64,000 nucleotides of DNA from Comamonadaceae bacterium (GTDB lineage Bacteria; Pseudomonadota; Gammaproteobacteria; Burkholderiales; Burkholderiaceae_C). Below the pieces are notes generated by a model that saw only the letters and a program-made list of their open reading frames with translations, ran no database searches and was not told the origin of the DNA. This document shows, in pieces, positions 26,120 through 54,888 of this stretch. The translations under genes were made by a program, and so were the position numbers. Within the stretch, counting starts at the first letter, position 1, and every line of letters starts with the position of its first letter. Location of the stretch: contig CANFLU010000011.1 in NCBI GenBank assembly GCA_947447975.1, positions 1-64,000 of the forward strand. Reading direction: 5' to 3'.

Positions 26120-27031
26120 CTAAAGCGCAGGCCACAGCCCTAGCGACTCTATAAAGGCCTGCATTTCGGCATAAATTGTCGCCAAGGCCTGCGCACCCCC
26201 CTGGCTTTGCGCGTAGAAGGTGTGCCCCCCTTCGCTAAAGGTGACCAAGGTGCAGCGGTTTTGCTGGGCACGCATCGCAGCGCAAAAAGCCTCGGAATTG
26301 GCATAGGGCACGGTTTTGTCTTGTACTGCATGGAACACCAAGGTGGGGGCCACGCCAGGGCCCAGGTGGTCGGTCACGGAGGCCGCTAGCGCGCGTGCAG
26401 GGCTGTCACCAAAACGGGCCGGCCCGCCGTAGCCCCCTGCCTTGGTATCGGTCACCGGGCTGACCAGCATGAGCGCAGCCGGCAGGGTGCTGCGCGGCTG
26501 CTCATCAGGCCAAGGCGCGCCTTGGGTCACGGCGGTCCAGGCCGCCACATGGGCACCGGCCGAAGAGCCCATGACCACGATTTTGTGCGGATCCACACCC
26601 AACTCAGCGGCATGCGCGGCCACCCAGGCCAATGCCGAACGGCCGTCGGAAATGCTGGCCTCAGGTGTCGTTTGAAAACGTTGGCGGGTGCGGTAATCGG
26701 CAGCGATACCCACCATGCCCTGTGATGCGGCCCAGCGGGCCCAGCCAATGGAGCGTTCGGGGGTCCCCGAGCTCCAGCCACCGCCAAAAAACGCCAGCAC
26801 GGCAGTACGCCGGTCGGTAGGCTGAAGTCCTGCCGGGCTGACCACGTGCAAACGCAGTTCCCAATCGGCTTGGGCCTTGTACAAAAAGGCTTGGGCGCCT
26901 GGCAAAGTCAGCGGTGCGACCTCGCTTGGTTCAGCAGCCCACACCACGGCGGGCCACAGACACAAGCCTGCCAGAACGCGCACCAAGGCGGTGGCCGCAT
27001 GTGCAAGGGAATGGCAGAAAAAGGGCTGCAT
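26120..27031 (-). CDS. Secreted carbohydrate acetyl esterase (alpha/beta hydrolase)
   Basis: A 303-residue protein with a signal peptide (LAGLCLWPAVVWAAEPS). The hydrolase core has an oxyanion-loop FFGGGWSSGTPERS, the nucleophile elbow VMGSSAGAHVAAW, then FHAVQDKTVPYANSEAFC with the acid and GGHTFYAQSQ with the catalytic His. This is the alpha/beta-fold acetylxylan or carbohydrate esterase type common in polysaccharide loci. It is divergent from the alginate-lyase-type gene and shares the operator at 27118-27129. It would remove acetyl groups from the glycan before lyase attack; which sugar carries the acetyl group is unknown. Confidence 0.75.
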   Translation of the reverse strand: MQPFFCHSLAHAATALVRVLAGLCLWPAVVWAAEPSEVAPLTLPGAQAFLYKAQADWELRLHVVSPAGLQPTDRRTAVLAFFGGGWSSGTPERSIGWARWAASQGMVGIAADYRTRQRFQTTPEASISDGRSALAWVAAHAAELGVDPHKIVVMGSSAGAHVAAWTAVTQGAPWPDEQPRSTLPAALMLVSPVTDTKAGGYGGPARFGDSPARALAASVTDHLGPGVAPTLVFHAVQDKTVPYANSEAFCAAMRAQQNRCTLVTFSEGGHTFYAQSQGGAQALATIYAEMQAFIESLGLWPAL

Positions 27032-27117
27032 AGGGTAAATCCAGAGGAGGAAAACGATTTCTCTAATATTTCAATAGTTGCGTGTCATTATGCCAAAGAC
27101 CATTATGCAAAAAGAGG

Positions 27118-27129
27118 TTAAACGTTTAC
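27118..27129. promoter_or_regulatory. LacI-type operator (TTAAACGTTTAC) with overlapping -10 box
   Basis: A palindrome centred on CG between the esterase and the lyase gene. On the plus strand the box TACAAT (27127-27132) overlaps its right half, so a bound repressor would block the lyase promoter. The core TAAACGTTTA recurs exactly at 34512 and 38468. Presumed ligand-dependent regulator: the LacI-family protein at 34683. Confidence 0.8.
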
Positions 27130-27190
27130 AATTTCTCGCATCTCAACCGCCGCGCCGCGGTATCTTGCACCTTAACAAGAGCTTTTTCTT

Positions 27191-28492
27191 ATGCGACTGA
27201 TGCACTCCTTGCTTACCTTGGTTCTGGCCGGGGGCCTTTGGGCCGCCCCATCTGCGAATGCGGCGTCTTCGCCCGCGCCCTACCCGCTGTGGACTTTGGA
27301 CTCGCAGTCCTTGTTGCAAACCCAGCAAAAAATCATTGCCGCCGACCCGTCCGTCCTGCCCGCCTACCGTGCGCTCCAAGATCGCGCCGCCACAGCACTG
27401 CTCGCGCCCTATCGCAGTGTGGTGAACAAGACACTCACACCCCCTTCGGGCAGCAAAAACGACTACATGAGCATGGGCCCGTATTGGTGGCCCAACCCCA
27501 GTACGCCCAATGGCCTGCCCTACGTGCAGCGCGACGGGCAGCGCAACCCGGAGTCGCACGGCAGTGCGCTCGATGCTGACAACCTACAAGGCATGGCCTC
27601 TGACAGCCTGGACCTGGCGCTGATGTACCGCTTTACCCAAGAAGCACGCTATGCCGAGAAGGCTGCTGCGGTGATTCGCGCTTGGTTCCTGACGCCCGCT
27701 ACCCGCATGAATCCGCACCTGCGCTATGCGCAGTCCATCCCAGGCATCGTCGACGGGCGCGGCATAGGCATTATTGACACGCGCGAGCTCTGGAAAGTGA
27801 TTGACGCGGCCGCACTGATCCAACCGGCACTCTCTCCCTCAGAGATGGATGCGCTGCGCGCCTGGTTTGTCCAATATGCGCAGTGGCTGAGCACCAGCGA
27901 GAACGGCAAAGAAGAGGCTGCTGCCAAGAACAACCACGGCATGTTCTTTGATGTGCAGTTGGCCCTGTATTGGCTCTACACCGGCGAGACTGCCCGCGCG
28001 CGCCAATTGGTGTTTGATGCCCAAACCAAGCGCTTTGCGGCACAGTTCGACAAGCGCGGTTGGATGCCTTTGGAGCTCGCCCGCACCAAGCCTTACCACT
28101 ACCACACCTTCACCCTGGAAGCCGTCACGCGCCTGGCGCTGTATGGCCAGCGTGTGCAGGCCCTGGTGCCCGCGGGACAGGGCTTGTCGGCCAGCGATGT
28201 GCGCTGTAGTGCTGCGGCCCTAGACATCAGCTGCCCATTGGACTTGTGGCACCGAGAAATCGATGGGAAATCATTGCAATCGGTGCTGCAGCGCGTGGCC
28301 GAGGTAGTGGTCAATCCCGCAGGCTGGACCTTTGCAACCAGTCTGGAACCAAAGCCCGATTTGCCACCGGCCATCTACGCCTTGGCGCTGGCCCGCGCAG
28401 CCTACCCCCCTGAGATGATGGCCCAAGCACTGGCACTGCTGCACAAAGAGAAGCCCGACAGCATTTACTGGCTGCTCTGGCCTGCGCCTTGA
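27191..28492 (+). CDS. Alginate-lyase-superfamily polysaccharide lyase (secreted)
   Basis: A 433-residue protein with a signal peptide (LLTLVLAGGLWAAPSANAA). The motif block GPYWWPNPSTPNGLPYVQRDGQRNPES is the signature of the Alginate_lyase family (PF05426-like), and NNHGMFFDVQLALYWLYTG with the conserved Asn-His is the catalytic centre found in PL5-fold enzymes. Homologues act on poly-uronates such as alginate or glucuronan; the exact bond is unknown. A paralogue lies at 43911-45185. The gene stands alone on the plus strand just after an operator and ends 16 bases before the convergent ABC operon end. Confidence 0.8.
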   Translation: MRLMHSLLTLVLAGGLWAAPSANAASSPAPYPLWTLDSQSLLQTQQKIIAADPSVLPAYRALQDRAATALLAPYRSVVNKTLTPPSGSKNDYMSMGPYWWPNPSTPNGLPYVQRDGQRNPESHGSALDADNLQGMASDSLDLALMYRFTQEARYAEKAAAVIRAWFLTPATRMNPHLRYAQSIPGIVDGRGIGIIDTRELWKVIDAAALIQPALSPSEMDALRAWFVQYAQWLSTSENGKEEAAAKNNHGMFFDVQLALYWLYTGETARARQLVFDAQTKRFAAQFDKRGWMPLELARTKPYHYHTFTLEAVTRLALYGQRVQALVPAGQGLSASDVRCSAAALDISCPLDLWHREIDGKSLQSVLQRVAEVVVNPAGWTFATSLEPKPDLPPAIYALALARAAYPPEMMAQALALLHKEKPDSIYWLLWPAP

Positions 28493-28508
28493 GCGACGGG
28501 CCCAAACG

Positions 28509-30320
28509 CTATTGGTAAGTGAGTGTCCACTGCACCGTAAATGGTGCGCTGGCGCTAAAACTGTCGCGCCGGTATTTGACGAGAGAACGCATGGGCCCAT
28601 TCGGTGAGCGCAGGCTGGTATGGCCGTCTAAGGCCACCAGCTGGCAGTGCTCTACACCAGTAGCCTGAAAGCTTTTGGCACTGCCTTTATGGAACACCAC
28701 GCCGCCGCCGGCTTGCAAGGCATTGGACGAAAAACTTAGGAATTCCAGGCTCAGTGCACGCACCTGTACGTTCTGGCGTGGCACAAAGCGCTCGGTGCGG
28801 GTAATGCGTCCAGACTCAAACACATATTCCACCTCTGCACTAAAGCGGTCGTCCTCGACCGGGGCGGGGCCGCCCACGCGGCTCAAGTTGTCCAGGCGGT
28901 AGCGCACCCGCTGGATACCTCCTGCAGTGTCACATTCGATATGCTTGAAAAACGCGGTACCCATGAGTTCGGTACCGTCCTCCAAGGTAATTTTGGGCAT
29001 GAGCTGGGGGTGCTCGATCCCGCTGTCTGCGATGCCTTCAATAATCCCGCGCGCAAAGGGCAAGGGGTAATACGGGCTGTTCATATGCTGGCTGCTACCG
29101 CCATTGACCATCAGCAAACTAAACACATGCTGGCGGTCCCGGTAGATGGCCAGGGCCCGGTGGTACTGGGCGTCTGCAAAGGGTACCAATTGCAAGGGAG
29201 CGTGCTTCGCAATCAGCCAGTTTTGCAAAGCAAACGGGCTGCAGGGTTTGGTCGCAACAAAACCGGAGGCTTTCCACAAATTTTCGGCACCGATGAGCTG
29301 GTGAATCAGCGAGAGGTTTTCACCCAATATTCTGGATTTGCCGCGGTAAGTATCCACCCGCCGACCCTGACCCCACATATCGACGCTGCCAATATCGGAA
29401 TTGAACCAAAAATCAATATACCGGCGCACCACGGCAGCGCACAAACTGTAGGCATACAGTTTTTCTTCGGAAGTCAGCACATTCAAATAGGCTGCCACGG
29501 ACAAAATTTGCAATATCGCGGTATCGCCGTACGGCCCCAGACTGCGCCCAAAACAAAAGCCATCGCCCTGCGCGCTGGCCAATTTCAGCGTGACATTGGT
29601 CGAGCTGCGCAACAAGGCGCGCAGCTTGGGTGTGACTTCCAGTCCCGTTTCAATAAAGCGCTCGCAAATTTCGGCTACCAGCAAAATGCTGTAGCGGTCA
29701 AAGCGCCCTTCGCCATCGGAATCGTCGCAAAACCCATATTCGCCAGAGTGGGTGTCGTAATGCTCCAGGGTTCTTTCCAACAAGGCATCGCTGGCGCTGG
29801 CGTCCTCCCAGCCCAAGAGCATGCGCAGGCGGGCAATACTGAAGGCCACGCCGTAATAATTGGTAGGTAAATCAATCAGCGAATAATCTTCGGTGCGCAC
29901 AAAGCGGCGCCAGTCTGCGCTTTGGCGCATGGTGGCCATGGCCGATTCGCTGACCGCAGCCTCCAGCAAGCCCGCTTTCTTCAAGGCATACAGCCCGGCG
30001 CAGGCGTAGTAAATACCCCAGGTATCGTTGCGCATGGCGCAGGTCAGGTCGACCATGGCCCGAAAGTCTTGGATCAATGTCTCGCGCTCTGCCGCTTCGG
30101 CCTCCAACAGCAAGTGGGCAAAGCCGGCGCATATTTTCCCGGGCAGAAACTTATCCCCCACCTCAAAGACCTGAACGCCGTCCAAACGGTATTGAAGGCC
30201 CTGCTCCGTCAAGTCAGAAAAGAGCGTGCGTAACTGCCTAAAAATCTCTCCCTGGATCACGGCGTGCAAAGACTTGTCGACAGGTGCCTCGCGCACCTTG
30301 GCTAGCTCCGGTGACTTCAT
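28509..30320 (-). CDS. Unrecognised 603-residue enzyme in a sugar ABC operon
   Basis: I do not recognise a named family with certainty. The protein has no signal peptide, so it is probably cytoplasmic. The ATG at 30320 overlaps the ABC ATPase stop as ATGA; the track start three codons earlier is less likely. The N-terminal two-thirds is helical and repetitive (NYYGVAFSIARLRMLLGW; FDRYSILLVAEICERF; GDTAILQILSVAAYLN), like an alpha/alpha toroid, and the last 200 residues are beta-rich, a plan shared with heparinase II/III- and PL-type enzymes. It is the last gene of the operon carrying the ABC importer. An intracellular lyase or hydrolase acting on imported sulfated or uronic oligosaccharides is my inference. 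Confidence 0.5.
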   Translation of the reverse strand: MKSPELAKVREAPVDKSLHAVIQGEIFRQLRTLFSDLTEQGLQYRLDGVQVFEVGDKFLPGKICAGFAHLLLEAEAAERETLIQDFRAMVDLTCAMRNDTWGIYYACAGLYALKKAGLLEAAVSESAMATMRQSADWRRFVRTEDYSLIDLPTNYYGVAFSIARLRMLLGWEDASASDALLERTLEHYDTHSGEYGFCDDSDGEGRFDRYSILLVAEICERFIETGLEVTPKLRALLRSSTNVTLKLASAQGDGFCFGRSLGPYGDTAILQILSVAAYLNVLTSEEKLYAYSLCAAVVRRYIDFWFNSDIGSVDMWGQGRRVDTYRGKSRILGENLSLIHQLIGAENLWKASGFVATKPCSPFALQNWLIAKHAPLQLVPFADAQYHRALAIYRDRQHVFSLLMVNGGSSQHMNSPYYPLPFARGIIEGIADSGIEHPQLMPKITLEDGTELMGTAFFKHIECDTAGGIQRVRYRLDNLSRVGGPAPVEDDRFSAEVEYVFESGRITRTERFVPRQNVQVRALSLEFLSFSSNALQAGGGVVFHKGSAKSFQATGVEHCQLVALDGHTSLRSPNGPMRSLVKYRRDSFSASAPFTVQWTLTYQ

Positions 30321-31426
30321 GCACCCCATCCCGTCAAGGCAAGACGCTGCTCGGCCGCGTCAAAAACATGCAAGCGGTCCATGCTGCACAGCAAAGTCGC
30401 CGCGTTACCGGCACGCCAGGCGGCGCGATCATCGCACTTCACCAGCACCGATCCGAGGGAGGTTTGCACGGTCACATAGGTATCTGCGCCCGTAAATTCC
30501 AAGGACTGCACCTGACAACTCAGCGCAAACGCGGCCGCAGGCGCCACCGTACCGGCTGCCACCAAGGTGCCGTGCTCGGGCCGCAAGCCCAAGGTACATG
30601 CGCCCACTTGCACACTGTGGCCCGCCACCGGCAGTTGTACCTGGCCACTGGCGTTGCTGAAAGTCAGCTGGCCTTGGGCATCCGGGGCCACGCGGCCTTG
30701 CAAAAAATTCATGGCAGGCGTACCAATAAAGCTGGCGACAAAACGGTTGACCGGCGCGTGGTACAGCGATTGCGGGGTACCGCTTTGTTCAACCGCGCCA
30801 TTGCGCAGCACCACGATGCGATCGCCCAGCGTCATCGCCTCCGTTTGGTCATGGGTGACGTAGACCGACGTGGTTTTGCTGCGCGCATGCATCGCGCGGA
30901 TTTCGGCCCGCACACTCGAACGCAGCGAAGCGTCCAGATTGGAGAGCGGCTCGTCAAACAAAAATACGGCAGGCGCGCGCACCATGGCCCGCCCCATGGC
31001 CACGCGCTGGCGTTGGCCGCCCGAGAGCTGGCGCGGAAAGCGGTCTAGCAATTCGCTCAGGCCCAGCGACTGGGCCGCAGCATCGACTTTGGCGGCAATC
31101 GTGGCTTTGGGCTGACCGGCCAGGCGCAGGCCAAAGCCCATGTTGTCCCGCACGCTGAGCTGCGGGTAGAGCGCATAACTTTGGAACACCATCGCCACGT
31201 CGCGCGCCTTCGGGGGCAGATCGGTGACATCACGTGTGCCTATATGCACCCGTCCGGCGGTGGGCGGCTCCAGACCGGCGATCACCCGCAGCAGCGTCGA
31301 TTTGCCAGAGCCGCTGGGGCCGACCAGGACACAAAATTCGCCGTCGGCAATATCGACCGATACATCGCGCAGCACCGGTACGCCGGCAAAACTTTTACTG
31401 ACTTTGTCTAATATCACTTGTGGCAT
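30317..31426 (-). CDS. Sugar ABC transporter ATP-binding protein (UgpC/MsmK-like)
   Basis: A 369-residue ATPase. Walker A (GPSGSGKSTLL), the Q-loop, the signature LSGGQRQRVAMGRAM and Walker B (PAVFLFDEPLSNLDA), then the H-loop (TSVYVTHDQTEAM) are complete. The C-terminal 130 residues form the regulatory beta-barrel (MalK-type) with SLYHAPVNRFVASFIGTPAMNFL. It energises the two permeases encoded upstream in the transcript. Its stop codon overlaps the start of the 603-residue gene. Confidence 0.92.
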   Translation of the reverse strand: MPQVILDKVSKSFAGVPVLRDVSVDIADGEFCVLVGPSGSGKSTLLRVIAGLEPPTAGRVHIGTRDVTDLPPKARDVAMVFQSYALYPQLSVRDNMGFGLRLAGQPKATIAAKVDAAAQSLGLSELLDRFPRQLSGGQRQRVAMGRAMVRAPAVFLFDEPLSNLDASLRSSVRAEIRAMHARSKTTSVYVTHDQTEAMTLGDRIVVLRNGAVEQSGTPQSLYHAPVNRFVASFIGTPAMNFLQGRVAPDAQGQLTFSNASGQVQLPVAGHSVQVGACTLGLRPEHGTLVAAGTVAPAAAFALSCQVQSLEFTGADTYVTVQTSLGSVLVKCDDRAAWRAGNAATLLCSMDRLHVFDAAEQRLALTGWGA

Positions 31427-31429
31427 GGT

Positions 31430-32284
31430 CTAGCCCTTGACGGCGCCTGCCAGCAGGCCCCGGTTAAATGCCTTTTGCATGGCGAGGTAAATAACAATCG
31501 AGGGCAGCATGGCGATCAAAGTAATCGCGACAAAAACCGCTGGCGGCATGGCCTCGTCCGCGCGCACCGAGGCCAGCGCCACGGGCAGGGTGTACAGGTC
31601 TTCACGGTTGGCCACGATCAGCGGCAACAAATACTGGTCCCAAATCATGATGAAGCCAAACACGGTGACGGTACCCAAGGCCGGCTTGATCAGCGGCAAG
31701 ATGACCAGCCAAAATATTTGCCACTCGCTGGCGCCGTCCATGCGGGCGGCCTCCTCCAGTTCGAGGGGCACTTTCTTCATAAACTCGGTGAGCATGAAGA
31801 TAGAAAAGGCCCAGCCGATCAGCGGCAAAATCATGCCCAAGTGGGTATTGAGCAAACTCACTTTGAATAATGGAATATTGCCCAGCACCAAATACAAGGG
31901 GATGGCAATCACCTCTTCGGGCAGCATCATGGTGCTCAGTATCAGCATGGAAACCACCGCCGAGCCCACAAACTTTTTGCGCGCCAGCGCATAGGCGGCC
32001 AAAGAACTGATGCTGACTTGCAATATCAAGCCAAAGGTCACGATCAGCATGGAATTGAGCAAGTAGCGCCACACCCGGGTTTTGAACCAGGCGTAATGAA
32101 AGTTGTCCATCGTGGGTGACTTGGGCCAAAACACCAACTCGCCTGGTTGCAACGTCACGCCGCTAAAGGCCGTCATGGCAAAGGCCCAAAACGGCCCGAC
32201 AAACACCACCAGCAGCAGCGCATAAAAGGCCCAGCGCGGCAACGCAGCACCCAACTTGGCCCAGGTAAAGCCGTCTTGCATCAT
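31430..32284 (-). CDS. Sugar ABC permease, inner-membrane subunit 2
   Basis: A 284-residue permease from the ATG at 32284, which overlaps the upstream permease stop as ATGA. The first segment (WAFYALLLVVFVGPFWAFAM) is followed by a large periplasmic loop and the EAA loop EEAARMDGASEWQIFWLVILPLIKPALG. It is the MalG/UgpE-type partner in carbohydrate uptake transporter-1 systems. The ATPase follows three bases after its stop. Confidence 0.9.
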   Translation of the reverse strand: MMQDGFTWAKLGAALPRWAFYALLLVVFVGPFWAFAMTAFSGVTLQPGELVFWPKSPTMDNFHYAWFKTRVWRYLLNSMLIVTFGLILQVSISSLAAYALARKKFVGSAVVSMLILSTMMLPEEVIAIPLYLVLGNIPLFKVSLLNTHLGMILPLIGWAFSIFMLTEFMKKVPLELEEAARMDGASEWQIFWLVILPLIKPALGTVTVFGFIMIWDQYLLPLIVANREDLYTLPVALASVRADEAMPPAVFVAITLIAMLPSIVIYLAMQKAFNRGLLAGAVKG

Positions 32285-33153
32285 GCCTCCAGCCTTTTGT
32301 GCCATTGCAAATACAGCATGGTGCACAACGCGGTAAATACAAACAAGACCACCGATGCGGCCGAGGCGTAGCCATAATCAAACTGCACAAAACCCAGTTT
32401 GTAAATCCGCGTCATGATGACCTCGGTGGCCCCGGCTGGCCCCCCGCCGGTGGTGGCCTGGATTTCGGCAAATACCCTAAAGCCGCGAATCATGCCCAGC
32501 ACGATCACAATCGTGATGGCATGCGTGAGGCCTGGTATGGTGACAAAGCGCAGGCGCTGCCAGGCCGTGGCGCCGTCGACGCGGGCCGCCTCGTACAACT
32601 CTTGGTTGATGGTGGCCATGCCGGCGACAAATATCACCATGTCGTAGGGCACGCTTTTCCATAAATGCATGAGCATGAGCCATTGCAATGCCCAGTCGGG
32701 GTCATTCAAATACCCCTGGGCCGTGATGCCAAAAAGTGCGGCGATGGAATTCATAATGCCGTCCGGGGTAGGCGCATACAGAATGCGCCACACCTCGGCC
32801 AATACCGCAGCACTGGTGATCGCAGGCAAAAACAAGGCGGTGCGAATCATCCGAATATGGCGCGTAACGCCTTGCATGGAAAGCGCCAACAACAGGGCCA
32901 GCACCACCGACAAGCTCACGGTGCAAGAGACATACAAGAAGGTGTTCCAGGCGGCCGCACCGAGCGCCTCGTCTTGCAGCACACGTTCGAAATTTTCCAG
33001 GCCAATCCACTCGTTGGGCGCACCAAAATTGACTTTATAAAAACTCATGCGCAGGCCCAGGGCCATGGGTATGAACTTAAACCAGGTAAAGACCATCAAC
33101 GCGGGCGCTAAAAATAGCGCCGGTACCAGCCATTGACGCCAGGTGCGCATCAT
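32281..33153 (-). CDS. Sugar ABC permease, inner-membrane subunit 1
   Basis: A 290-residue MalF/UgpA-type permease. Six membrane segments are evident, starting with WLVPALFLAPALMVFTWFKF, and the EAA loop reads YEAARVDGATAWQRLRFVTIPGLTHAI. It overlaps the stop of the binding-protein gene by four bases (ATGA), and its own stop overlaps the next permease start, showing tight coupling. Confidence 0.9.
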   Translation of the reverse strand: MMRTWRQWLVPALFLAPALMVFTWFKFIPMALGLRMSFYKVNFGAPNEWIGLENFERVLQDEALGAAAWNTFLYVSCTVSLSVVLALLLALSMQGVTRHIRMIRTALFLPAITSAAVLAEVWRILYAPTPDGIMNSIAALFGITAQGYLNDPDWALQWLMLMHLWKSVPYDMVIFVAGMATINQELYEAARVDGATAWQRLRFVTIPGLTHAITIVIVLGMIRGFRVFAEIQATTGGGPAGATEVIMTRIYKLGFVQFDYGYASAASVVLFVFTALCTMLYLQWHKRLEA

Positions 33154-34475: not shown

Positions 34476-34510
34476 AAAATTTCTCGGTTTGCTGGCGCTA
34501 GCATAGAGGG

Positions 34511-34522
34511 GTAAACGTTTAC
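34511..34522. promoter_or_regulatory. LacI-type operator GTAAACGTTTAC with -10 box TATACT
   Basis: This is the most perfect copy of the palindrome, 36 bases before the binding-protein start. On the minus strand TATACT (34525-34530) lies immediately upstream, so the operator covers the expected transcription start. It is the expected control site of the ABC operon by the LacI gene at 34683. Confidence 0.85.
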
Positions 34523-34592
34523 TTAGTATAGCCATGATTTGGCCCTGCAATGATGGGGAATACCCTTAGTTAACTTTGTAGGAAAAGAATGG

Positions 34593-34604
34593 GTAAACGA
34601 ATCC
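34593..34604. promoter_or_regulatory. Degenerate operator half-site near the LacI gene
   Basis: GTAAACGAATCC matches the left half (GTAAACG) of the operator, but the right half has decayed. It lies about 80 bases before the LacI start and may allow weak autoregulation. Confidence 0.4.
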
Positions 34605-34682
34605 CAAATTTTCACTGCTAACTGCGCTAGAGGGTTAACATTACGCTATGGGGAAACCTCTTTTTTTCTTGGTAGCTTGCAC

Positions 34683-35696: not shown

Positions 35697-35705
35697 GCAG
35701 GGCAG

Positions 35706-35729
35706 CGGCCCGGGCCCTGGGCAGGGCCG
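35706..35729. terminator. GC-rich hairpin between convergent genes
   Basis: CGGCCC and GGGCCG arms around a G/C-rich loop lie ten bases after the LacI stop and before the TonB receptor stop. There is no T tract, so its terminator function is only suggested by position. Confidence 0.4.
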
Positions 35730-35767
35730 GGGGGCAACCGGCGCTGAAGCAATCGCGCCAGGTCAGC

Positions 35768-38401: not shown

Positions 38402-38466
38402 GTTGCGTCCTTTTGGTAAATCTGGGGTGAAAAAATGTATCTTGTAGGAATTGTCACACTATTGTG

Positions 38467-38478
38467 ATAAACGTTTAA
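38467..38478. promoter_or_regulatory. LacI-type operator (ATAAACGTTTAA) before TonB receptor
   Basis: The core TAAACGTTTA is identical to the sites at 27119 and 34512. It is about 66 bases upstream of the receptor start codon, so repressor binding should block its promoter. A second inverted repeat TCACA-CTAT-TGTGA lies directly next to it, unexplained. Confidence 0.75.
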
Positions 38479-38525
38479 TCAGTATTTACCCTTGGTATTC
38501 GTCGCTTGGCTTTCGCGGCGGCTTC

Positions 38526-40034: not shown

Positions 40035-40057
40035 GGAATAGTTGCTTTCTTTCAAAA

Positions 40058-41455
40058 TCACTGTGGGGCGACCGCCGCAAGCGGGGGTTTTTCGATGGGT
40101 GCCCAGGAGGGCGGTTTCATCTGGGCGCTCCAGCCGTTCCACAGCGCGCGCAGTTGGTCTAATTTTTGGGGTTCGCTGGCGGCCATATCGCGCTGTTCAC
40201 CCAGGTCGGTGCGCAGGTCAAACAAGCGCCATTGTTCGGCGTCTTTGATGAGCTTCCAATCGCCTTGTCGCAGGGCGCCACGCTTGCCTTGGCGCCAGTA
40301 CAAAGCATCGTGTACCGGCGCACTGGATTTGCCGGTTATCCAAGGCATCAGATCGACACCGTCCAGGCCCTGCGCCGGCATGGCCCCGGCCAGCGTGAGC
40401 GCGGTCGCGGTCATGTCAAAACCGCTGCTCATGCCGTCAAAGCTGCCCCCTGCCGCAATCGTGCCGGGCCAATACAGGATCGCCGGAACGCGAATACCGC
40501 CCTCCCAAAAAGTGGCCTTCCCGCCGCTCAAGGGGTAATTGCTGGAGGTCGTTTGGTGCACCGGCCCGCCGTTATCACTGATAAACACCACCAAGGTGTC
40601 GCGCTCCAGGCCTTCGGTTTTCAGCGTTTGCAGTACCGCGCCGACCTGGTCGTCCAGCGCCTCGACCATAGCGAGGTGGATGCGGCGCTTCTCGTCAGCG
40701 ATGTGGGCAAATCGCTGGTAGTAGGCGCGCGTGGTTTGCATGGGCACATGCGGGGCGTTAAACGCGAGCATGACGAAAAATGGATCGCTTTTATGGGCTC
40801 GGATAAAGTTGCTGGCCTCGGCGCCTAGCGCCTCGGTCAGGTGAGCGGGCAGTTCCACTGGCGTGCTTTGGCGCTGCAGGCGGTTGGTCCTCGCATCGGC
40901 CGCATCGGTGGCGTTGTACTGGGTGACGCCGTCAGCGGTGTAGGGATGGGTGCCGCCCAGAAAACCATAAAACGTGTCAAAACCCCGGGCGTTGGGATGG
41001 TGCTCGGGCTTGTAGCCTTGGTGCCATTTGCCAAACAATGCTGTTGCGTAGCCCTGGGTTTTGAGGCGCTCGGCTACCGTGGGCGTGTCCACTGGCAGAC
41101 CGAAATTGGGCCCGGAGCCGCCGGGGTTGTACTCAAAGCCCATGCGCTGCTGGTACACGCCGGTGAGCAAGGCAGCACGGCTGGGCGCGCACTCCGGGTG
41201 GTTGGCGTAGTACTGGGTAAAGCGCAGGCCCGAGGTGGCCAATGCGTCGATATGCGGCGAGCGCACTTCTTTATCTCCCTGCACGCCTAAGTCACCATAA
41301 CCCATGTCGTCGGCGATCAGGAAAATGATATTGGGCTTGCGGCCCGGCGTGGGCCCCTTACCCGACGCGGATGCGGCAAAACTGCTTGCGACGCTGCACA
41401 GGCAGAACGCCAACCAGAGCTTTGCCATCGTCTTGAAGCGCGGCTTGTAAATCAT
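40058..41455 (-). CDS. Sulfatase, arylsulfatase A-like (exported)
   Basis: A 465-residue sulfatase from the ATG at 41455, eight bases after the FGE stop. The signal peptide is LWLAFCLCSVASSFAASA. Calcium-site residues (IADDMGYGDLG) precede the formylglycine motif ECAPSRAALLTG at about Cys89, then FGKWHQG, DNGG and a late sulfate-binding region (FISDNGGPVHQTTSSN). The sulfate position it attacks cannot be told from sequence. It is 23 bases from the next sulfatase gene. Confidence 0.86.
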   Translation of the reverse strand: MIYKPRFKTMAKLWLAFCLCSVASSFAASASGKGPTPGRKPNIIFLIADDMGYGDLGVQGDKEVRSPHIDALATSGLRFTQYYANHPECAPSRAALLTGVYQQRMGFEYNPGGSGPNFGLPVDTPTVAERLKTQGYATALFGKWHQGYKPEHHPNARGFDTFYGFLGGTHPYTADGVTQYNATDAADARTNRLQRQSTPVELPAHLTEALGAEASNFIRAHKSDPFFVMLAFNAPHVPMQTTRAYYQRFAHIADEKRRIHLAMVEALDDQVGAVLQTLKTEGLERDTLVVFISDNGGPVHQTTSSNYPLSGGKATFWEGGIRVPAILYWPGTIAAGGSFDGMSSGFDMTATALTLAGAMPAQGLDGVDLMPWITGKSSAPVHDALYWRQGKRGALRQGDWKLIKDAEQWRLFDLRTDLGEQRDMAASEPQKLDQLRALWNGWSAQMKPPSWAPIEKPPLAAVAPQ

Positions 41456-41463
41456 GCTGTGTC

Positions 41464-42492
41464 TTAAGGTTGTGGCTTGGCGGCCGGGGCCGGGGCATCG
41501 CCCACGGTACGAAAGCCGATGTGCGAGGCGCCCAGGGCCAGGTCCTGACCGTGCCGCGCGCCTGGGCGGTAGCGCATGCAGTAGCCCGGCGCACATAAAA
41601 AGCTGCCGCCTTTGATCGTCGCCACCGGAACGCCTTTTTGCATCGGGTCATCGCCTTTGGCGCCCGCTTTGAGGGTGCGCGGACGCTTCTCGTAATAGGG
41701 GTCGACCGTCCACTCCCAGACGTTGCCAATCATGTCGTGCAGTCCGATGCTATTGGGGGCAAAACAGCCCACCGGGGCCAGGCCGGCGTAGCCATCAATG
41801 GCAGCATCTTGAAGCGGAAATTTGCCCTGCCAGGTGTTGGCCTGGCTGGGCTGCTCGTGGTCGTTGACACTGGCCGGGTCGGCGCCACGGGCGGCCCACT
41901 CCCACTCGATTTCGGTGGGCAAGCGCCGGCCGGCCCAGCGGGCGTAGGCTTGGGCGTCGGCCAGCACCACATGCACCACCGGGTAGTTGTCGCGGCCCTC
42001 GATACCCGAGTTCGGCCCTTCGGGGGCACGCCAGTAGGCGCCTGGGACAAAACTCCACCATGCGCTAACGTCATTGGCCAGTGCACGCTCGGCGTTCTTG
42101 AGCTGGAAAACAGCCGAGCCCGGCACCAACTGGTCGGGCGGAATGTCGGGGTAGGCGCGCGGGTCGGGGCGCTGCTCGGCGACCGTGACGTAGCCAGTGG
42201 CGGCTACAAACCGGGCAAATTGTCCGTTGGTCACCTCAAAGGCGTCCATCCAAAAGCCCTTGCGCAACTGCTCTTTGCGCAGCGGTCCCTCTTCCGGGAA
42301 GCGGTCATCGCCCATGGTAAAGCTGCCAGGTGCGACATAGACCTGCGCCTCGGGCGTGTACTCCTTACAGACTTTGACCGGCCGGGGAGCCACTTGCGCC
42401 TGCGGTGGCTCGGCCTTTTGGCAGGCCGCCACGCCAGCGACGACCAACGACACCGCGAGTAAGCGGCGCATCCAACAGTGGGTACAGTCCAT
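41464..42492 (-). CDS. Formylglycine-generating enzyme (sulfatase-modifying factor), predicted lipoprotein
   Basis: A 342-residue FGE/SUMF1-type protein. The C-terminus shows [31 protein letters not shown] with both catalytic Cys (about 300 and 305, CxxxxC) as in human FGE, so it should convert sulfatase Cys to formylglycine using oxygen and copper. The N-terminus is a lipoprotein signal ([13 protein letters not shown]), placing it in the periplasm, whereas most bacterial sulfatase maturation occurs in the cytoplasm. It lies in the same operon as four sulfatase genes, just upstream of the second. The ATG at 42492 is used; an internal ATG at 42471 also gives a signal peptide. Confidence 0.85.
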   Translation of the reverse strand: [342 protein letters not shown]

Positions 42493-42505
42493 GGTTTACT
42501 GAGCC

Positions 42506-43852
42506 TTAGTCTGCGTCGGGCAGGCCGCTGGCACGTACCTTGGGTTTTTTGTTTTCATGGCGACCACTTTCGCCGCCCTTGTCCACGATGCCGCCGGCCG
42601 GGTTGAGCTGCTGCAATGCCAGTTGCAAACGGCCGCGGGCGGCCAGGGCCGCCGGGTCTTTGCTGTCTTTGGGAACCAGGGTTTCAGCAAAAGGCGCATC
42701 GACCATGTCAAACAATTCGCCGTCGTGGGTGAGCTTGAAGTTTGCCTCGCGCACATACCAATTCCTGGCCAGCTGGACAAATGCCCATTCGCGCGGCTTG
42801 CCTTGGCCGCCTTGCAACTGGGGCGCAAAGCTGCGCCCGTCGATAGTGACGCCAGACGGTAATTTGGCACCTGCCAATTCCGCAAAGGTGGGCAGCAGAT
42901 CGCTAGAGTCGATGAGCTCGCTGGTCACTTTGCCAGCCGGTACCACACCGGGCCAGTTGACGATCAAGGGCACCAAGGCCCCGCCCTCTTGCATCGAACC
43001 TTTGCTGCCAAAAATTGCGCGTCCGCCAATCTTGGCAAACCGACTGGGGCCGCCAGCGGTGCCGTTATCGCCCATAAACACCAGCACGGTTTTTTCTCGC
43101 AACTTCAAACGATCGAGTTCGGCTACCAACTGGCCTACCAATTTGTCCATATAGGCGACGTTGTCGGCATACAGCGTTTTGCTCTCAGGCACACTGTCAG
43201 GTGTGGGCAGTATTTCGCTGTGCACGTGCGACATGGAGTAATGCACGAAAAAAGGTTTATCGCGGTTTTGCGTGATGAAATCGATCAGGTGTTTGTGCAA
43301 CACATCCGGCATGTACTCTTTATCCCGAAGGGGAATGGTTTTGCCATTGACCAAATAATCTTTGCCCTTGACCTGGGTGTTCCAATAAATACCGCTGCCT
43401 TTGAATTGCAAATAGTCATCAAAACCAAAATCGCCAGCGGTCAGCGGCAGTTGACCCCATTTGCCAATCATGGAGCTCACATAACCTGCGGACTTCAACA
43501 CCTTGGGCGTGAGTTGTTCGGAGGGCGAAAACACGTCGCCGCTGGCATCCTGGCTGGTCGCGCCCGTGCGAAATGGGTAGCGGCCACTCAATATCATGGC
43601 CCGCGACGGACCGCACAAGGGAAGCGTGTAACTGCGGGTATAGCGTGTGCCACCCTGCGCTAGCGCGTCAATATGGGGGGTTTTGTAATGGTCCGCGCCG
43701 TAGGCGCTGACCTCACCAGTTCCATAGTCATCGGCCAATATAAAAATAATATTGGGCTTGGCCGGCGCTGCAGCCAGGGCCGATGCCAGGAGGCCTAGCG
43801 TCACACACAGGGCAATCCCTATTTGCTTGAATTTCAACATAAAAGGCCTCAT
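42506..43852 (-). CDS. Sulfatase with variant CGPSRAMILSG site (exported)
   Basis: A 448-residue protein from the ATG at 43852 (MRPFMLKFKQIGIAL is a good signal peptide; the track start at 43897 adds 15 charged residues). The formylglycine motif is CGPSRAMILSG at about Cys80, with SG in place of the usual TG. Calcium/active-site elements PNIIFILADDYGTGEVSAYG, MIGKWGQ, and MGDNGTAGGPSRF follow. It has no strong similarity to the other three sulfatases, so it probably removes a different sulfate. It is 14 bases upstream of the FGE gene. A half-operator (GTAAACGG, 43877) is close to its start. Confidence 0.83.
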   Translation of the reverse strand: MRPFMLKFKQIGIALCVTLGLLASALAAAPAKPNIIFILADDYGTGEVSAYGADHYKTPHIDALAQGGTRYTRSYTLPLCGPSRAMILSGRYPFRTGATSQDASGDVFSPSEQLTPKVLKSAGYVSSMIGKWGQLPLTAGDFGFDDYLQFKGSGIYWNTQVKGKDYLVNGKTIPLRDKEYMPDVLHKHLIDFITQNRDKPFFVHYSMSHVHSEILPTPDSVPESKTLYADNVAYMDKLVGQLVAELDRLKLREKTVLVFMGDNGTAGGPSRFAKIGGRAIFGSKGSMQEGGALVPLIVNWPGVVPAGKVTSELIDSSDLLPTFAELAGAKLPSGVTIDGRSFAPQLQGGQGKPREWAFVQLARNWYVREANFKLTHDGELFDMVDAPFAETLVPKDSKDPAALAARGRLQLALQQLNPAGGIVDKGGESGRHENKKPKVRASGLPDAD

Positions 43853-43910
43853 CAAACGAAAGAAATGGGTAGATCGGTAAACGGCCAAAAGCTTCACACG
43901 CGCGAGGCAT

Positions 43911-45185
43911 TCAACTACCGCTTGCCTGGATTTTCAGCCACAAGAGGGGCTGCGTAATGGCGATATTACGTTGCACCTCATCGTCGGCACAATCGGGCTG
44001 CAACTGGCTCCATAACTGGAGTAAATCGCTGCGAAAAAATGCATTGCCACCAAACAGCAATGCGCTTTGTCGCATCGGCCAATATTGCCAGGCCTGCACA
44101 TCGGGCGCATAAGGCCACTGGCTCTTTTTGGCAATATAGGGGGCCAGGTAAGCCAGTCCCTTTTCCATACACCGCCCATCGGACAGCGTGAAATTCCACA
44201 GGTTTTCCGCCGGCGTCGACAACACTTGGCACAAAGCTGCCATATTGTCCAACTGAAACAGCGAATAGGCATAGGGCTTGGTGCGCTTGAGCTCCTCTGG
44301 GAAACTCCCATCGAGCGCCATTTGCGTACCGATGAAATTACGCTTGAACTGCGCTGCGGCCTGCGCCATGCGCGCCGGATCTTGGGTGAACCGCGCAAAT
44401 ACGGCCACCTGCAACCAATAGGCCACCGAATGGTTATTGCGCTCCTTGGCTTCGTCCTGCCCATTGGCGCTGCTGATCAGCCATTGCAGATAAGCGCTAA
44501 ACCACTCCTGTACCGCCGTCGCAACGGACGCCGGGAAACCAGGCAGTTTGGCAATCGCCTCTAGGGCCACCGGGATTTCGATGAGGTGCAAGGTATCAAT
44601 AATCCCAATGCCCCTGCCCTGCGATACACCCGGTATGGCCTGGGCATATTGCAAGTGCGGATTCATGCGGGTATTGGGGTGCACAAAAAATACCGCAAGC
44701 AATTGCGCTATCTTGTCCAGGTACTTTCGGGCACCAGGGGCCGACGGGCTCATCAAGGCGGCTGCGGCCAAGGCAGCTACCGCATCGCGCAGCGCGCGCA
44801 CCGCTAAGCGGTGGTCATTGAAATTACCGGGATTGCTTTGCCCATCGCGCCTTACAAAAGGAAGCCCGTCCGCGCTGTCAGGGTTGGGCCACCAATAATC
44901 GCCATTGGAGTAATAGTCATTCACATTGCCCGGACTCAGCGGGCTGGCGGTTTTCACAATCGTGACGGGTGCCATCCCCAAGGCTGCTTCGGCCGCGCGC
45001 GCAATGCGCACCCGATCGAGCTGCCCTACGTCCTGCCACCCCAAGCGCGTAGGCGCAGGATCGGTGACCGCGGCTTGGGCCACCTGCCATCGCAACCACA
45101 CAGGCAAAGACAACAGCAAAAAGCCCAGGCGACGGCGGATATTCAAGCCTTGGGCATTCACAAATAGTCTGCCGCCACGGTGCAC
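43911..45185 (-). CDS. Alginate-lyase-superfamily enzyme, paralogue of 27191-28492
   Basis: A 424-residue protein. After a hydrophobic signal (LGFLLLSLPVWLRWQVAQA), the motif block YYSNGDYWWPNPDSADGLPFVRRDGQSNPGNFNDHR is the PF05426-type signature, and RNNHSVAYWLQVAVFARFT the catalytic Asn-His helix. It shares TRMNPHLQYAQAIPGVSQGRGIGIIDT with its paralogue, and the two may attack different linkages. The track start is a GTG at 45185, one base from the sulfatase stop; the GTG at 45161 is an equal choice. It lies inside the sulfatase operon, tying lyase and desulfation steps together. Confidence 0.78.
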   Translation of the reverse strand: MHRGGRLFVNAQGLNIRRRLGFLLLSLPVWLRWQVAQAAVTDPAPTRLGWQDVGQLDRVRIARAAEAALGMAPVTIVKTASPLSPGNVNDYYSNGDYWWPNPDSADGLPFVRRDGQSNPGNFNDHRLAVRALRDAVAALAAAALMSPSAPGARKYLDKIAQLLAVFFVHPNTRMNPHLQYAQAIPGVSQGRGIGIIDTLHLIEIPVALEAIAKLPGFPASVATAVQEWFSAYLQWLISSANGQDEAKERNNHSVAYWLQVAVFARFTQDPARMAQAAAQFKRNFIGTQMALDGSFPEELKRTKPYAYSLFQLDNMAALCQVLSTPAENLWNFTLSDGRCMEKGLAYLAPYIAKKSQWPYAPDVQAWQYWPMRQSALLFGGNAFFRSDLLQLWSQLQPDCADDEVQRNIAITQPLLWLKIQASGS

Positions 45186-46700
45186 TTACTGAACGACCGG
45201 CCTAGCCGCTTTCCATCCCGCGTTCAACTGCTCGCGCATGGATTTGACCAAAGCGGCGTGCTCCGGGCGCTGCGCGATGTTCAAGTTTTCGTCGGGGTCG
45301 GTCAGGTGGTCATAGAGTTCTAGGGCCACCACCTTGCTCAGGTCTGCGCGGTCTACCCACTGCACTATGCGGTAGCGATCATTAACCATGGCGTAGCCCA
45401 TCAGGGGGCTGCCGCCGGTCACATACGCGGTGCGGGGGTATTGGCTAAAGGCGACTTTTTTCCAGGGCATATCGGGTTTGTCCAGCAAGGGACGGAAACT
45501 GGTTCCCTCCAAATGCTTGGGCAGGGGCAAGCTGGCTAAATCCGACAAGGTCGGGAAAATATCCACCATTTCCACGATCGCGTTGCTTTTGGCACCCGTC
45601 GTTTTCATTCCCGGCGCCGAGATCAGCAAAGGCGCTTTGGTGTCGATTTCCATATTGGTGTGCTTGGTCCAGGCGTCATGCTCGCCGAGCTTCCAGCCAT
45701 GGTCACCCCACAAAACCACAATCGTGTTTTTGCGCAAATTGAGGCGGTCCAACTCGTCGAGCACCTTGCCCACCTGGGCGTCGGTATAGCTGATACCGGC
45801 GTAATAGCCATGCTTGAGCGAACGCGCCAAGTCCGGGGGAATGGAGGTTTCGGGAATACCGTGGTAATTGCGCAATTCGCCACCATACATGACCGCGTAT
45901 TCGGGCGCGCCGATGGGGCGGAAAGGGTTATGGGCCAACTCAATTTTGGCCGGATCGTACATATCCCAGTATTTTTTGGGCGAGACAAAAGGCAAATGCG
46001 GTTTCACAAACCCGACGGCGAGGAAAAAAGGCTCTTTTTTCTTGCTCATGTCACGCAGCGTTTGCGTCGCCAGTTCGGCCACCTTGCCGTCGGTGAAGGT
46101 GTTGTCCGGTACGTCGGCGCCTTCAAAGGCCGGGCCACGCATATTGACGCCGCTAGACGGACCGCCGTCCGCCGTTAAAGGCTCGGAGGCATTGCGCTTG
46201 GGTTTTTCCGTGGCTTTGAGTTGGTTCAGGCGTTCGTCTAAGGCGACGTTTTCAGGCAAGGCATATTTCACAGCCGGCGGGTTTTGCCAGGGCACGGACC
46301 AAGTGGGGGCATCGTCGTAGCCGCCATGAAAAATCTTGCCCATGCCCTGCACAAAGTAACCGTTATTTTTAAAGTGCTGGCCCAAGGTGACAATGTCCGG
46401 GGCGGCCTTGCGGAAGTGCGTGACCAAATCCCAGACTTTGGTGGTATCCGGGCGGGCGCCGGTCATCACGCTGGTGCGCGACGGTGAGCACACGGCCTGC
46501 TGCACGTAGGCGCGGTTGAAGGTTAGGCCCTCTTTGCCGATGCGGTCGATATTGGGGCTTTTTATGTAGTCTTTGCCGTAAATGCCGAGCTCCGGGCGCA
46601 GGTCGTCTACGACGATAAACACCACATTGGGACGCTCGGCCGCGAACGCCCAACTACTGGCTACACACAGGAAAGTAAAGGACAGGATGTGGCTCTTCAT
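45186..46700 (-). CDS. Sulfatase, iduronate-2-sulfatase type, first gene of operon (exported)
   Basis: A 504-residue protein from the ATG at 46700, with GGGAGTC upstream. Signal peptide ILSFTFLCVASSWAFAAE; formylglycine site CSPSRTSVMTG at about Cys71 in the context AERPNVVFIVVDDLRPELGIYGKDYIKSPN. It is a close paralogue of the 38526 sulfatase (same RPDTTKVWDLVTHFRK stretch and later TWSVPW, DERLN regions). Two S1-type paralogues suggest two 2-O-sulfo-uronate contexts. A degenerate operator lies at 46739-46750. Confidence 0.86.
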   Translation of the reverse strand: MKSHILSFTFLCVASSWAFAAERPNVVFIVVDDLRPELGIYGKDYIKSPNIDRIGKEGLTFNRAYVQQAVCSPSRTSVMTGARPDTTKVWDLVTHFRKAAPDIVTLGQHFKNNGYFVQGMGKIFHGGYDDAPTWSVPWQNPPAVKYALPENVALDERLNQLKATEKPKRNASEPLTADGGPSSGVNMRGPAFEGADVPDNTFTDGKVAELATQTLRDMSKKKEPFFLAVGFVKPHLPFVSPKKYWDMYDPAKIELAHNPFRPIGAPEYAVMYGGELRNYHGIPETSIPPDLARSLKHGYYAGISYTDAQVGKVLDELDRLNLRKNTIVVLWGDHGWKLGEHDAWTKHTNMEIDTKAPLLISAPGMKTTGAKSNAIVEMVDIFPTLSDLASLPLPKHLEGTSFRPLLDKPDMPWKKVAFSQYPRTAYVTGGSPLMGYAMVNDRYRIVQWVDRADLSKVVALELYDHLTDPDENLNIAQRPEHAALVKSMREQLNAGWKAARPVVQ

Positions 46701-46738
46701 GACAGACTCCCAACAAAACAAATGCGTTGAATGGGATG

Positions 46739-46750
46739 GTAATCGTTATC
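46739..46750. promoter_or_regulatory. Degenerate LacI-type operator before sulfatase operon
   Basis: GTAATCGTTATC matches 9 of 12 bases of GTAAACGTTTAC and keeps the central CG. It is about 40 bases before the first sulfatase start, in the expected place. It is less convincing than the three perfect copies. Confidence 0.5.
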
Positions 46751-46858
46751 CTTTGCAAAAATCTAGGTAATAACCCTCATAATTTGGTAAAGACTCAGTG
46801 AATTTGGGACTTTCAGATCAGAATTCACCTAAGCTGTAAGAAGCAATGGAATTTTTAG

Positions 46859-46870
46859 GAAAACGTTTTA
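46859..46870. promoter_or_regulatory. Operator-like palindrome GAAAACGTTTTA
   Basis: The core AAACGTTT is kept and 9 of 12 bases match. It overlaps the start region of the Sel1 gene (46874), so it would sit over or just after the promoter if translation starts at 46895. Confidence 0.45.
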
Positions 46871-46873
46871 TGA

Positions 46874-49747: not shown

Positions 49748-49792
49748 ATGGAAATCAGGTGTCCACCCAAGGTGCTTAGCCATGGCAAGAAT

Positions 49793-51157: not shown

Positions 51158-51235
51158 GGATTTGTCTCCTGGTGTGGCGCGCACGCACGCTGACGTGGAC
51201 CTCAATGGTAAGTCATCATATAACTGAGACGCCGT

Positions 51236-51994: not shown

Positions 51995-52076
51995 GGAAAA
52001 ATCCTTGACGCAAGCGAAGCGAATAGCGAGAATTTAACACATACGACATCAGACAACCTAAATAAATTTTCGGCAA

Positions 52077-52904: not shown

Positions 52905-52906
52905 GC

Positions 52907-53848: not shown

Positions 53849-53856
53849 GAGACAGC

Positions 53857-54825: not shown

Positions 54826-54829
54826 TTCG

Positions 54830-54870: not shown

Positions 54871-54888
54871 GTTTCACCGGAGTCCATC

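Follow-up and report, generated by a model that had tools for sequence, protein, structure and literature searches.

A candidate sulfated-polyuronan locus with a candidate polysaccharide-lyase family in a freshwater relative of Rhodoferax

Known systems and organization of the locus

The alginate system of Sphingomonas sp. A1 reportedly combines an ABC importer with a cytoplasmic PL15 exolyase, A1-IV. In Pseudomonadota, a TonB-dependent receptor is usually combined with an ABC importer, and SusD is absent. Polysaccharide lyases of family PL38, one of which is carried by Brevundimonas SH203 (PMC5477187), act on alginate, glucuronan, or hyaluronan/chondroitin (PMC13027841, PMC11790493): the PL38 of A. 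muciniphila cleaves HA, CSA, CSC, and DS (PMC11790493), RiPL38 cleaves HA/CS (PMC13027841), and two alginate lyases are also assigned to the family (PMC13027841).

The locus described here lies in a window of 64 kb (the whole stretch of DNA that was analysed) from a freshwater relative of Rhodoferax. A sequence-only reading had seen in it a betaproteobacterial locus for a sulfated glycan rich in uronates. This description is borne out: the nearest relative is a Comamonadaceae MAG, lyases, sulfatases, and a formylglycine-generating enzyme (FGE) apparently share one regulon, and the corresponding locus of genome G028 carries two inserted genes, one for a uronate dehydrogenase (Udh, E 6e-79 to 3rft) and one for a lactonase. 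Each gene named in that reading has a strong family match, and the four sulfatases, FGE, esterase, TonB receptor, ABC importer, and LacI regulator are all present between 26120 and 46721. The block had been drawn up to 46873; the genes stop at 46721, and 46722–46873 is a promoter region with two operator copies. The gene list also omitted the most unusual gene, a 606-aa ORF (u606). The TonB receptor with an ABC importer but no SusD, set there against the SusC/D loci of Bacteroidetes, is indeed present, but it is ordinary for the phylum.

The Pfam scan covered the locus ORFs other than the ABC ATPase and both permeases. Among the ORFs scanned, neither a glycoside hydrolase nor a SusD-like protein was found; the locus is thus not a PUL in the SusCD sense of Bacteroidota. 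The whole locus is also found in two other species of the genus (G028 and G433), syntenic and with 82–100% amino-acid identity. Since, in addition, four of the only seven sulfatases of the 3.03-Mb assembly sit in one operon of the locus, the gathering of these genes is not due to chance.

All four transcription units of the locus are preceded by a LacI-type operator. A search for perfect palindromes found none; the operators were revealed by reading the intergenic regions and by a position weight matrix (PWM) built on the G028 operators. When the whole 64 kb was scanned, six locus operators ranked top, with scores of 16.1–21.6 against a maximum of 16.5 over 20 Markov nulls. Similar sites are present in four other loci (L011, L012, L049, and L058). 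A single LacI regulon is the best explanation of this arrangement, judged from sequence.

From 48428, a neighboring block encodes pectate lyases and the glucarate/galactarate pathway, and supplies a glucarate route. It was considered as part of the same regulon and rejected: it contains no LacI operator and is not found beside the G028 locus.

Table 1. Genes and predicted operators of the locus, with positions in the window
Feature	Position	Strand	Evidence
Secreted esterase (BD-FAE/Abhydrolase_3), probable O-acyl esterase	26120..27031	-	PF20434 1e-22; conserved beside PL38a in G028 and G433
LacI-type operator	27047..27064	.	PWM 19.4
LacI-type operator	27115..27132	.	PWM 21.6, best in window
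PL38-type lyase a, secreted	27191..28492	+	PF05426 7e-74; 3nfv 5e-66, 8bdq 1e-48, no PL5 match
u606, candidate new polysaccharide-lyase family, predicted cytoplasmic oligouronide (exo-)lyase	28509..30329	-	AF2 model, Foldseek, conserved residues; without signal peptide
MalK-type ABC ATPase	30317..31426	-	Sequence; 90% identical in G028
ABC permease 2	31430..32326	-	Sequence; 96% identical in G028
ABC permease 1	32281..33153	-	Sequence; 97% identical in G028
ABC solute-binding protein	33150..34550	-	PF01547 1.5e-38; true start probably below 34508
LacI-type operator	34508..34525	.	PWM 19.7
LacI-type operator, weaker	34590..34607	.	PWM 14.3
LacI-family regulator	34677..35696	+	PF00356 and PF13377; 96% identical in G028
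TonB-dependent receptor (TonB-Xanth-Caul)	35768..38401	-	TIGR01782 567 bits, cut-off 310
LacI-type operator	38464..38481	.	PWM 17.1
Sulfatase A (S1_7-like), CSPSR	38526..40142	-	PF00884 4e-42; 61% identical to sulfatase D
Sulfatase B (S1_19-like), CAPSR	40058..41596	-	6prm 1e-99
Formylglycine-generating enzyme, probable lipoprotein	41464..42492	-	PF03781 8e-68; GGSFLCAPGYC
Sulfatase C, divergent, CGPSR	42506..43897	-	PF00884 3e-49; best PDB match only 2e-45
PL38-type lyase b	43911..45185	-	PF05426 1e-69; 3nfv 1e-57; 39% identical to lyase a
Sulfatase D (S1_7-like), CSPSR, first gene of sulfatase operon	45186..46721	-	6hhm 1.5e-106, IDS 5fql 1.6e-73
LacI-type operator	46736..46753	.	PWM 20.7
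LacI-type operator	46856..46873	.	PWM 16.1

Sulfatases, PL38-type lyases, and u606

All four sulfatases match PF00884 (E 4e-42 to 3e-62) and contain the C-x-P-S-R motif of S1 formylglycine sulfatases, and the FGE has its paired active-site cysteines. For sulfatases A and D, the closest characterized sequences belong to S1_7, with 5fql/6ioz among the best PDB matches of D. The earlier label, an iduronate-2-sulfatase-type pair, is therefore correct at the subfamily level. A 2-O-sulfo-uronate substrate does not follow, because S1_7 also holds xylose-2- and galactose-4-sulfatases: the nearest solved member, 6HHM, reportedly has 2-sulfo-xylose of ulvan as its substrate, and a further member has 4-sulfo-galactose (PMC9096561). 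The bacterial 2-O-sulfatases of glycosaminoglycan (GAG) loci belong to S1_9 (PMC6460246), and the S1_9 structure 5g2t matches sulfatase D weakly (1.9e-20). Sulfatase B is closest to S1_19 (6prm, 6bia, 6b0j, and 9hh3, each at 1e-86 or better, with family labels taken from PMC9096561 and PDB titles), nearest to the galactose-4-sulfatases of carrageenan. Three more sulfatases are encoded elsewhere in the genome.

The two enzymes previously called alginate-lyase-type are PF05426 proteins, as stated, but of PL38 rather than PL5 type. Only 3nfv and 8bdq, the latter with its variants, match them in the PDB at E ≤ 0.001, no PL5 structure being among the matches, and both contain the PL38 active-site motifs KNNHG/RNNHS and RTKPYxY, aligned to 8bdq. 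The earlier remark that no chondroitin lyase is present does not exclude GAGs, because HA/CS is among the substrates of PL38 (PMC11790493). The ABC solute-binding protein matches only generic sugar binders in the PDB.

No sequence match to u606 was found in Pfam, NCBIfam, or the PDB, and a 50-member profile detected no homology in PDB/Pfam; hence, u606 shows no sequence homology to the known (alpha/alpha)-toroid lyase families (8, 12, 15, 17, 21, 33, 35, 39). Its AlphaFold (AF2) model (pLDDT 92.6) consists of an (alpha/alpha)-toroid and an antiparallel beta-sandwich, a polysaccharide-lyase fold. Foldseek matched it to PL35 (8e-12), PL33 (2e-11), PL12, PL17 (exo-oligoalginate lyase, 5e-10), and PL8, and nearly all of its best PDB matches are lyases of the toroid/beta-sandwich type. 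N157 and Y213 are conserved in 50 of the 50 members and H415 in 47; the Asn-Tyr spacing is 56 residues, compared to 54 in PL35 and 57 in PL17 (PMC12088678). The catalytic positions are taken from residue order and spacing rather than from residue-level superposition. The PL35, PL33, PL17, and PL8 structures (8khv, 8r6z, 4nei, 1egu) have the same fold and the same order of Asn, Tyr, and His, but only ~10% identity to u606. Based on the model, u606 is a candidate for a new polysaccharide-lyase family, unnamed in these databases.

At least 131 loci, mostly in Pseudomonadota, encode u606. Its neighbors are often PL38, uronate dehydrogenase, or mannonate dehydratase (ManD, in Sphingomonas), and PL38 or Udh adjoins it in 60 of 80 loci; in the Halomonas loci, neither of these two was found nearby. 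A signal peptide is absent in all five loci with an ABC importer and present in 67 of the 75 without one. Because the localization varies, the idea that all members act in the cytoplasm, or that all are secreted, was rejected. In two Brevundimonas genomes (L071 and L073), u606 has a signal peptide and lies near a PL38 gene. Duganella loci carry both u606 and GH105, so that u606 is not always a substitute for the latter.

Candidate substrates

The reading preferred here, given even chances, is that the locus serves a polyuronan that is sulfated and probably O-acylated, that most likely resembles beta-1,4-glucuronan, and that is depolymerized by lyases only, u606 included. A polyuronan backbone, rather than a GAG or ulvan, is indicated by the lack of a glycoside hydrolase in the locus and of GH88/105 in the genome: PF07470 is absent from G000, G028, and G283, these absences resting on one 90%-complete and one 96%-complete genome. 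Outside the cytoplasm, the polymer would be stripped by the esterase and by the sulfatases, for whose maturation the local FGE would serve, and the two PL38 lyases would cut it into unsaturated oligouronides, entering through the TonB receptor and the ABC importer. In the cytoplasm, u606 would release unsaturated monouronate by beta-elimination, to be converted to KDG by KduI and KduD, while the last saturated glucuronate would be oxidized to glucarate by uronate dehydrogenase. KduI (432 bits) and KduD (448 bits) are both above cut-off in the genome, on another contig without a LacI operator; UxaC was not found in the genome.

Against glucuronan, only O-2 and O-3 are free in the chain, and four sulfatases of three types look many. 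The further substrates of PL38, HA/CS and alginate, count against glucuronan as well. No mention of sulfated glucuronan was found in the literature searched.

Three sulfatase types for one polymer would suit a sulfated heteropolysaccharide from the mucilage of algae or cyanobacteria, with uronate stretches and sulfated neutral sugars in alternation; this locus would handle the uronate part and other loci the rest. The affinities of sulfatase B (carrageenan) and of 6HHM (ulvan; PMC9096561), as well as the three sulfatases outside the locus, point in this direction, as does a sulfatase-bearing relative (L012) in which a PL6-type lyase and DUF1961 accompany homologues of these enzymes (sulfatases A and B), with no PL38 in the stretch examined. 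However, the regulon contains no glycoside hydrolase, rhamnose, or fucose gene, and this substrate is possible but rather less likely.

Chondroitin/dermatan sulfate or hyaluronan would suit the PL38 enzymes of A. muciniphila (PMC11790493) and RiPL38 (PMC13027841), which would yield unsaturated disaccharides; S1_7, containing human iduronate-2-sulfatase, would remove the 2-O-sulfate, and the S1_19-type enzyme and sulfatase C the hexosamine sulfates. A GAG is nevertheless improbable: G000 and G028 lack the GH88/105 unsaturated uronyl hydrolase, the locus has no hexosaminidase, the 2-O-sulfatases of GAG loci are of S1_9 type (PMC6460246), and in loci that lack sulfatases, u606 goes together with GlcA catabolism.

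u606 need not be a lyase, because its fold includes the uronyl epimerase 6hzn (dermatan sulfate epimerase, TM 0.55) and, more weakly, the glucuronate dehydratase 9o4u. As a C5-epimerase or 4,5-dehydratase, it would prepare ends for another enzyme; dehydratases of the 9o4u type work with GH88/105 (PMC12269599), and GH105 lies beside u606 in Duganella. This is unlikely, as the product of a dehydratase would be a dead end in G000, G028, and G283, the best fold matches are lyases, and the Asn-Tyr-His pattern fits lyases. Ordinary alginate utilization with hitch-hiking sulfatases would account for the PF05426 name, the two known PL38 alginate lyases, and an ABC importer with a cytoplasmic exolyase, resembling the system of Sphingomonas sp. 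A1, but is very unlikely, given that no PL15/PL17-type exolyase exists in the genome (Hepar_II_III was not found), that the association with Udh and ManD is indicative of D-glucuronate, and that sulfatases and lyases have a common operator.

Comparison with known systems

The sulfated-polyuronan reading can be extended, tentatively, to a joint proposal: u606 would found a Pseudomonadota-wide lyase family comprising the missing oligoglucuronan (exo-)lyase, CUL-II included, to which freshwater bacteria would have added sulfatases in order to feed on a natural, chemically undescribed sulfated glucuronan. Through u606, a lyase family that the searched databases do not name can be traced by sequence, and the long-known orphan activity of CUL-II, an exo-type cellouronate lyase, becomes directly testable. 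The locus also suggests a sulfated polyuronan in freshwater, where the turnover of sulfated polysaccharides is less studied than in the sea.

Brevundimonas SH203 (PMC5477187) shares a PL38 lyase with this locus, but lacks sulfatases. Because u606 lies near PL38 in Brevundimonas, it is, as a predicted cytoplasmic oligouronide lyase, a candidate for CUL-II, a link drawn from gene neighborhood. The ulvan and chondroitin sulfate PULs of Bacteroidota likewise gather sulfatases, lyases, and a TonB receptor under one regulator, with S1_7 in ulvan degradation; the present locus, on the contrary, has no SusD, glycoside hydrolase, or GH88/105, and uses LacI and an ABC importer instead. With Sphingomonas sp. 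A1, it has in common the ABC importer and a cytoplasmic lyase that would finish the oligouronides. The lyase family is nevertheless different, and the locus has, in addition, PL38 endolyases, sulfatases, FGE, and a TonB receptor.

Gene content and predicted regulon

The gene list proposed for the locus by the sequence-only reading was recovered in full with Pfam and NCBIfam, the two permeases and the MalK-type ATPase of the ABC importer being named from sequence only. Besides this importer, with its SBP, the locus comprises four sulfatases, all carrying the C-x-P-S-R motif, an FGE with the catalytic cysteine pair, two PF05426 lyases (PL38a and PL38b), a BD-FAE/Abhydrolase_3 esterase, a TonB-Xanth-Caul receptor and a LacI regulator. 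The sulfatase operon holds four of the seven sulfatases of the genome (G000). Absent from the earlier list was the ORF immediately 3' of the ABC ATPase gene, encoding u606, a candidate polysaccharide lyase of 606 aa.

Features of the window and of related genomes
Position	Strand	Feature	Remark
25364-25993		PagL-like lipid A deacylase	Flanks the locus in G000 and G433
26120-46721		Sulfatase locus
27191..28492	+	PL38a
28509-30329	-	u606
38526..40142	-	Sulfatase A	S1_7-like
40058..41596	-	Sulfatase B	S1_19-like
42506..43897	-	Sulfatase C	Divergent
43911..45185	-	PL38b
45186..46721	-	Sulfatase D	S1_7-like
48428-63982		Neighbouring block	PL10 and PL1 pectate lyases, glucarate dehydratase (GudD), Udh, lactonase, TRAP, GarD, GarL, GntR, TctC parts, IclR
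60402-61457		PF14099 'Polysacc_lyase' match	Weak (6e-8)
L012:4516-6691		PF14592 (chondroitinase-B/PL6) protein and DUF1961	Adjoin sulfatase A/B homologues and u606
L012:11857-12222		CHMI-family tautomerase	Adjoins u606
L008:9782-12484, L008:12697-15783, L009:275-2662		Three large PF05426 proteins of G283	Around distant u606 relative (~40%)
L094:1357-2565 (G000:C44)		Third PL38-type gene of G000
C2:233932		Third PL38-type gene of G028

Sought in relatives, as the same reading had proposed, the gene set was found in two further genomes. In G028 (L010, Comamonadaceae MAG Jr-7aug17-221, another species of the same genus), the gene order is identical, with 82-97% aa identity. There, the TonB receptor and LacI genes are separated by two inserted genes, for a uronate dehydrogenase (Udh; 3rft as top match, E 6e-79) and a lactonase. 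In G433, the locus is spread over two contigs, with 90-100% identity. The locus is accessory, as sulfatase C occurs in just 3 of the 103 genomes sampled from the genus.

Each of the four transcription units (esterase with PL38a; SBP-to-u606 with LacI; TonB receptor; sulfatase operon) is preceded by an 18-bp LacI-type operator, approximately GGNTAAACGTTTANCC. A matrix derived from the G028 sites only, then run over the 64-kb window, returned six of the locus operators as its top six sites (scores 16.1-21.6); the maximum in 20 Markov-simulated 64-kb sequences was 16.5. Good sites are also found in the relatives L011, L012, L049 and L058. The locus genes form one unit sharing these predicted operators.

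The relative L012 (Oxalobacteraceae MAG JR-MC-D-240519-52) encodes homologues of sulfatases A and B, u606, Udh, LacI, a PL6-type lyase and DUF1961, which may be a carbohydrate-active domain. The MAGs are probably of freshwater origin: the isolate prefix fits Jiricka pond, the sampling of which has been described (PMC9166423).

Fold and genomic context of u606

The u606 sequence has no match in Pfam, NCBIfam or the PDB, and a 50-member alignment retrieved no relative from the PDB or Pfam. Relatives are encoded at no fewer than 131 loci on GTDB contigs, 80 of which were kept (Massilia, Duganella, Rugamonas, Halomonas, Caulobacter, Brevundimonas, Sphingomonas, Roseateles, Rhodoferax). The AlphaFold model (pLDDT 92.6, pTM 0.91) displays an (alpha/alpha) toroid (~20-375) and, C-terminal to it, an antiparallel beta-sandwich (379-605). 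Polysaccharide lyases with the same architecture make up nearly all of its best Foldseek matches in the PDB: PL35 GAGase II (8.4e-12), PL33 (2e-11), PL17 Alg17c (5e-10) and, also, PL12 and PL8. In PL35, PL17 and PL39, 53-57 residues separate the catalytic Asn from the catalytic Tyr, and a His lies in the sheet domain (PMC12088678). The putative counterparts in u606, assigned from order and spacing alone, are N157 and Y213 (50/50 sequences) and H415 (47/50). N157 and Y213 lie 56 residues apart; from Y213 to H415 it is 202 residues, more than the 155-166 of those families, which makes H415 the weakest of the three assignments. Human dermatan sulfate epimerase shares this fold, as does, with a weaker match, 9o4u, a glucuronate dehydratase (PMC12269599). 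Because an epimerase and a dehydratase have the same fold, lyase chemistry is likely, short of proof; u606 is quite probably a lyase. Judged against Pfam, NCBIfam and the PDB, it represents a new sequence family, predicted to adopt a lyase fold.

PL38 or Udh lies within 10 kb of u606 in 60 of the 80 loci. Those of Sphingomonas contain a ManD-type mannonate dehydratase (735 bits, cut-off 550) and those of Duganella contain Udh, GH105, GH2 and GH3. Udh and ManD both catalyze steps of D-glucuronate catabolism. By a simple hydrophobicity rule, u606 has no recognizable signal peptide in 5/5 loci with the ABC importer and has one in 67 of the 75 others (Fisher p = 5e-5, for loci related by descent). 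From this split, u606 seems placed where the oligosaccharides are: cytoplasmic where the importer exists, elsewhere outside the cytoplasm.

In Halomonas-type genomes (L043-L045, L051-L053, L059), most u606 homologues bear a signal peptide; neither PL38 nor Udh was found near these homologues. The G283 group adjoins a GT2 glycosyltransferase and an ABC transporter and is perhaps a polyuronate biosynthesis cluster. A small protein adjoins u606 in Oxalobacteraceae (L012; Duganella, e.g., L046 and L024) and may have the unsaturated uronate product as its substrate.

Substrate and degradation route

Gene content points, with moderate confidence, to a glucuronan-like polyuronan. Glucuronan fits the glucuronate genes and the PL38 record, which includes CUL-I and TpPL38A (PMC13027841). 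A GAG is possible, as PL38 also contains HA/CS lyases, besides enzymes cleaving alginate (PMC11790493, PMC13027841). However, a heteropolymer, whether GAG or ulvan, needs hydrolases to finish; no glycoside hydrolase was found among the scanned locus ORFs and no GH88/105 in the drafts of G000 (90% complete) and G028 (96% complete), which argues for the polyuronan. Hepar_II_III-type lyases and the uronate isomerase UxaC were not found in these two genomes either. Both encode KduI, directly followed by KduD in G000. With a uronate-only polymer, lyases alone would reach monomers; each chain would then leave a single saturated residue to Udh.

Sulfatases A and D are closest to 6hhm, then to human IDS. 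Reported S1_7 targets differ (ulvan 2-sulfo-xylose, carrageenan 4-sulfo-galactose; PMC9096561), and several sulfate positions are therefore possible. The phrase "sulfated glucuronan" was not found in the literature searched.

Sequence and model establish the genes, the regulon and the fold; the catalytic steps below we infer. Outside the cytoplasm, the polymer would be desulfated and de-esterified, the two PL38 lyases would endo-cleave it, and the products would be taken up by the TonB receptor and then the ABC importer. In the cytoplasm, u606 would cut the oligouronides to the unsaturated monomer for KduI and KduD, the saturated end residue passing to Udh.

The third PL38-type genes of G000 and G028 have no LacI operator nearby and, hence, lie outside the regulon; G442 also has one PL38-type gene.

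Neighboring block and known systems

The neighboring block is a pectin/aldarate system separate from the sulfatase locus, and the matrix found no strong operator of that locus across it. At the window end, it contains a PF00544 pectate lyase together with a weak pectinesterase stretch. The PF14099-matching product, without a match in the PDB, is possibly a further uncharacterized lyase; a 55% identical homologue is encoded near u606 in Undibacterium (L064).

The layout of the sulfatase locus is a known type of polysaccharide-utilization locus, newly varied, with u606 as the new element. Brevundimonas sp. SH203 produces two cellouronate lyases, CUL-I and the exo-type CUL-II, and has only one PF05426 gene in its genome (PMC5477187). 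The Brevundimonas genomes L071 and L073 carry a PL38 gene with u606 nearby, and u606 is a natural candidate for the orphan CUL-II.
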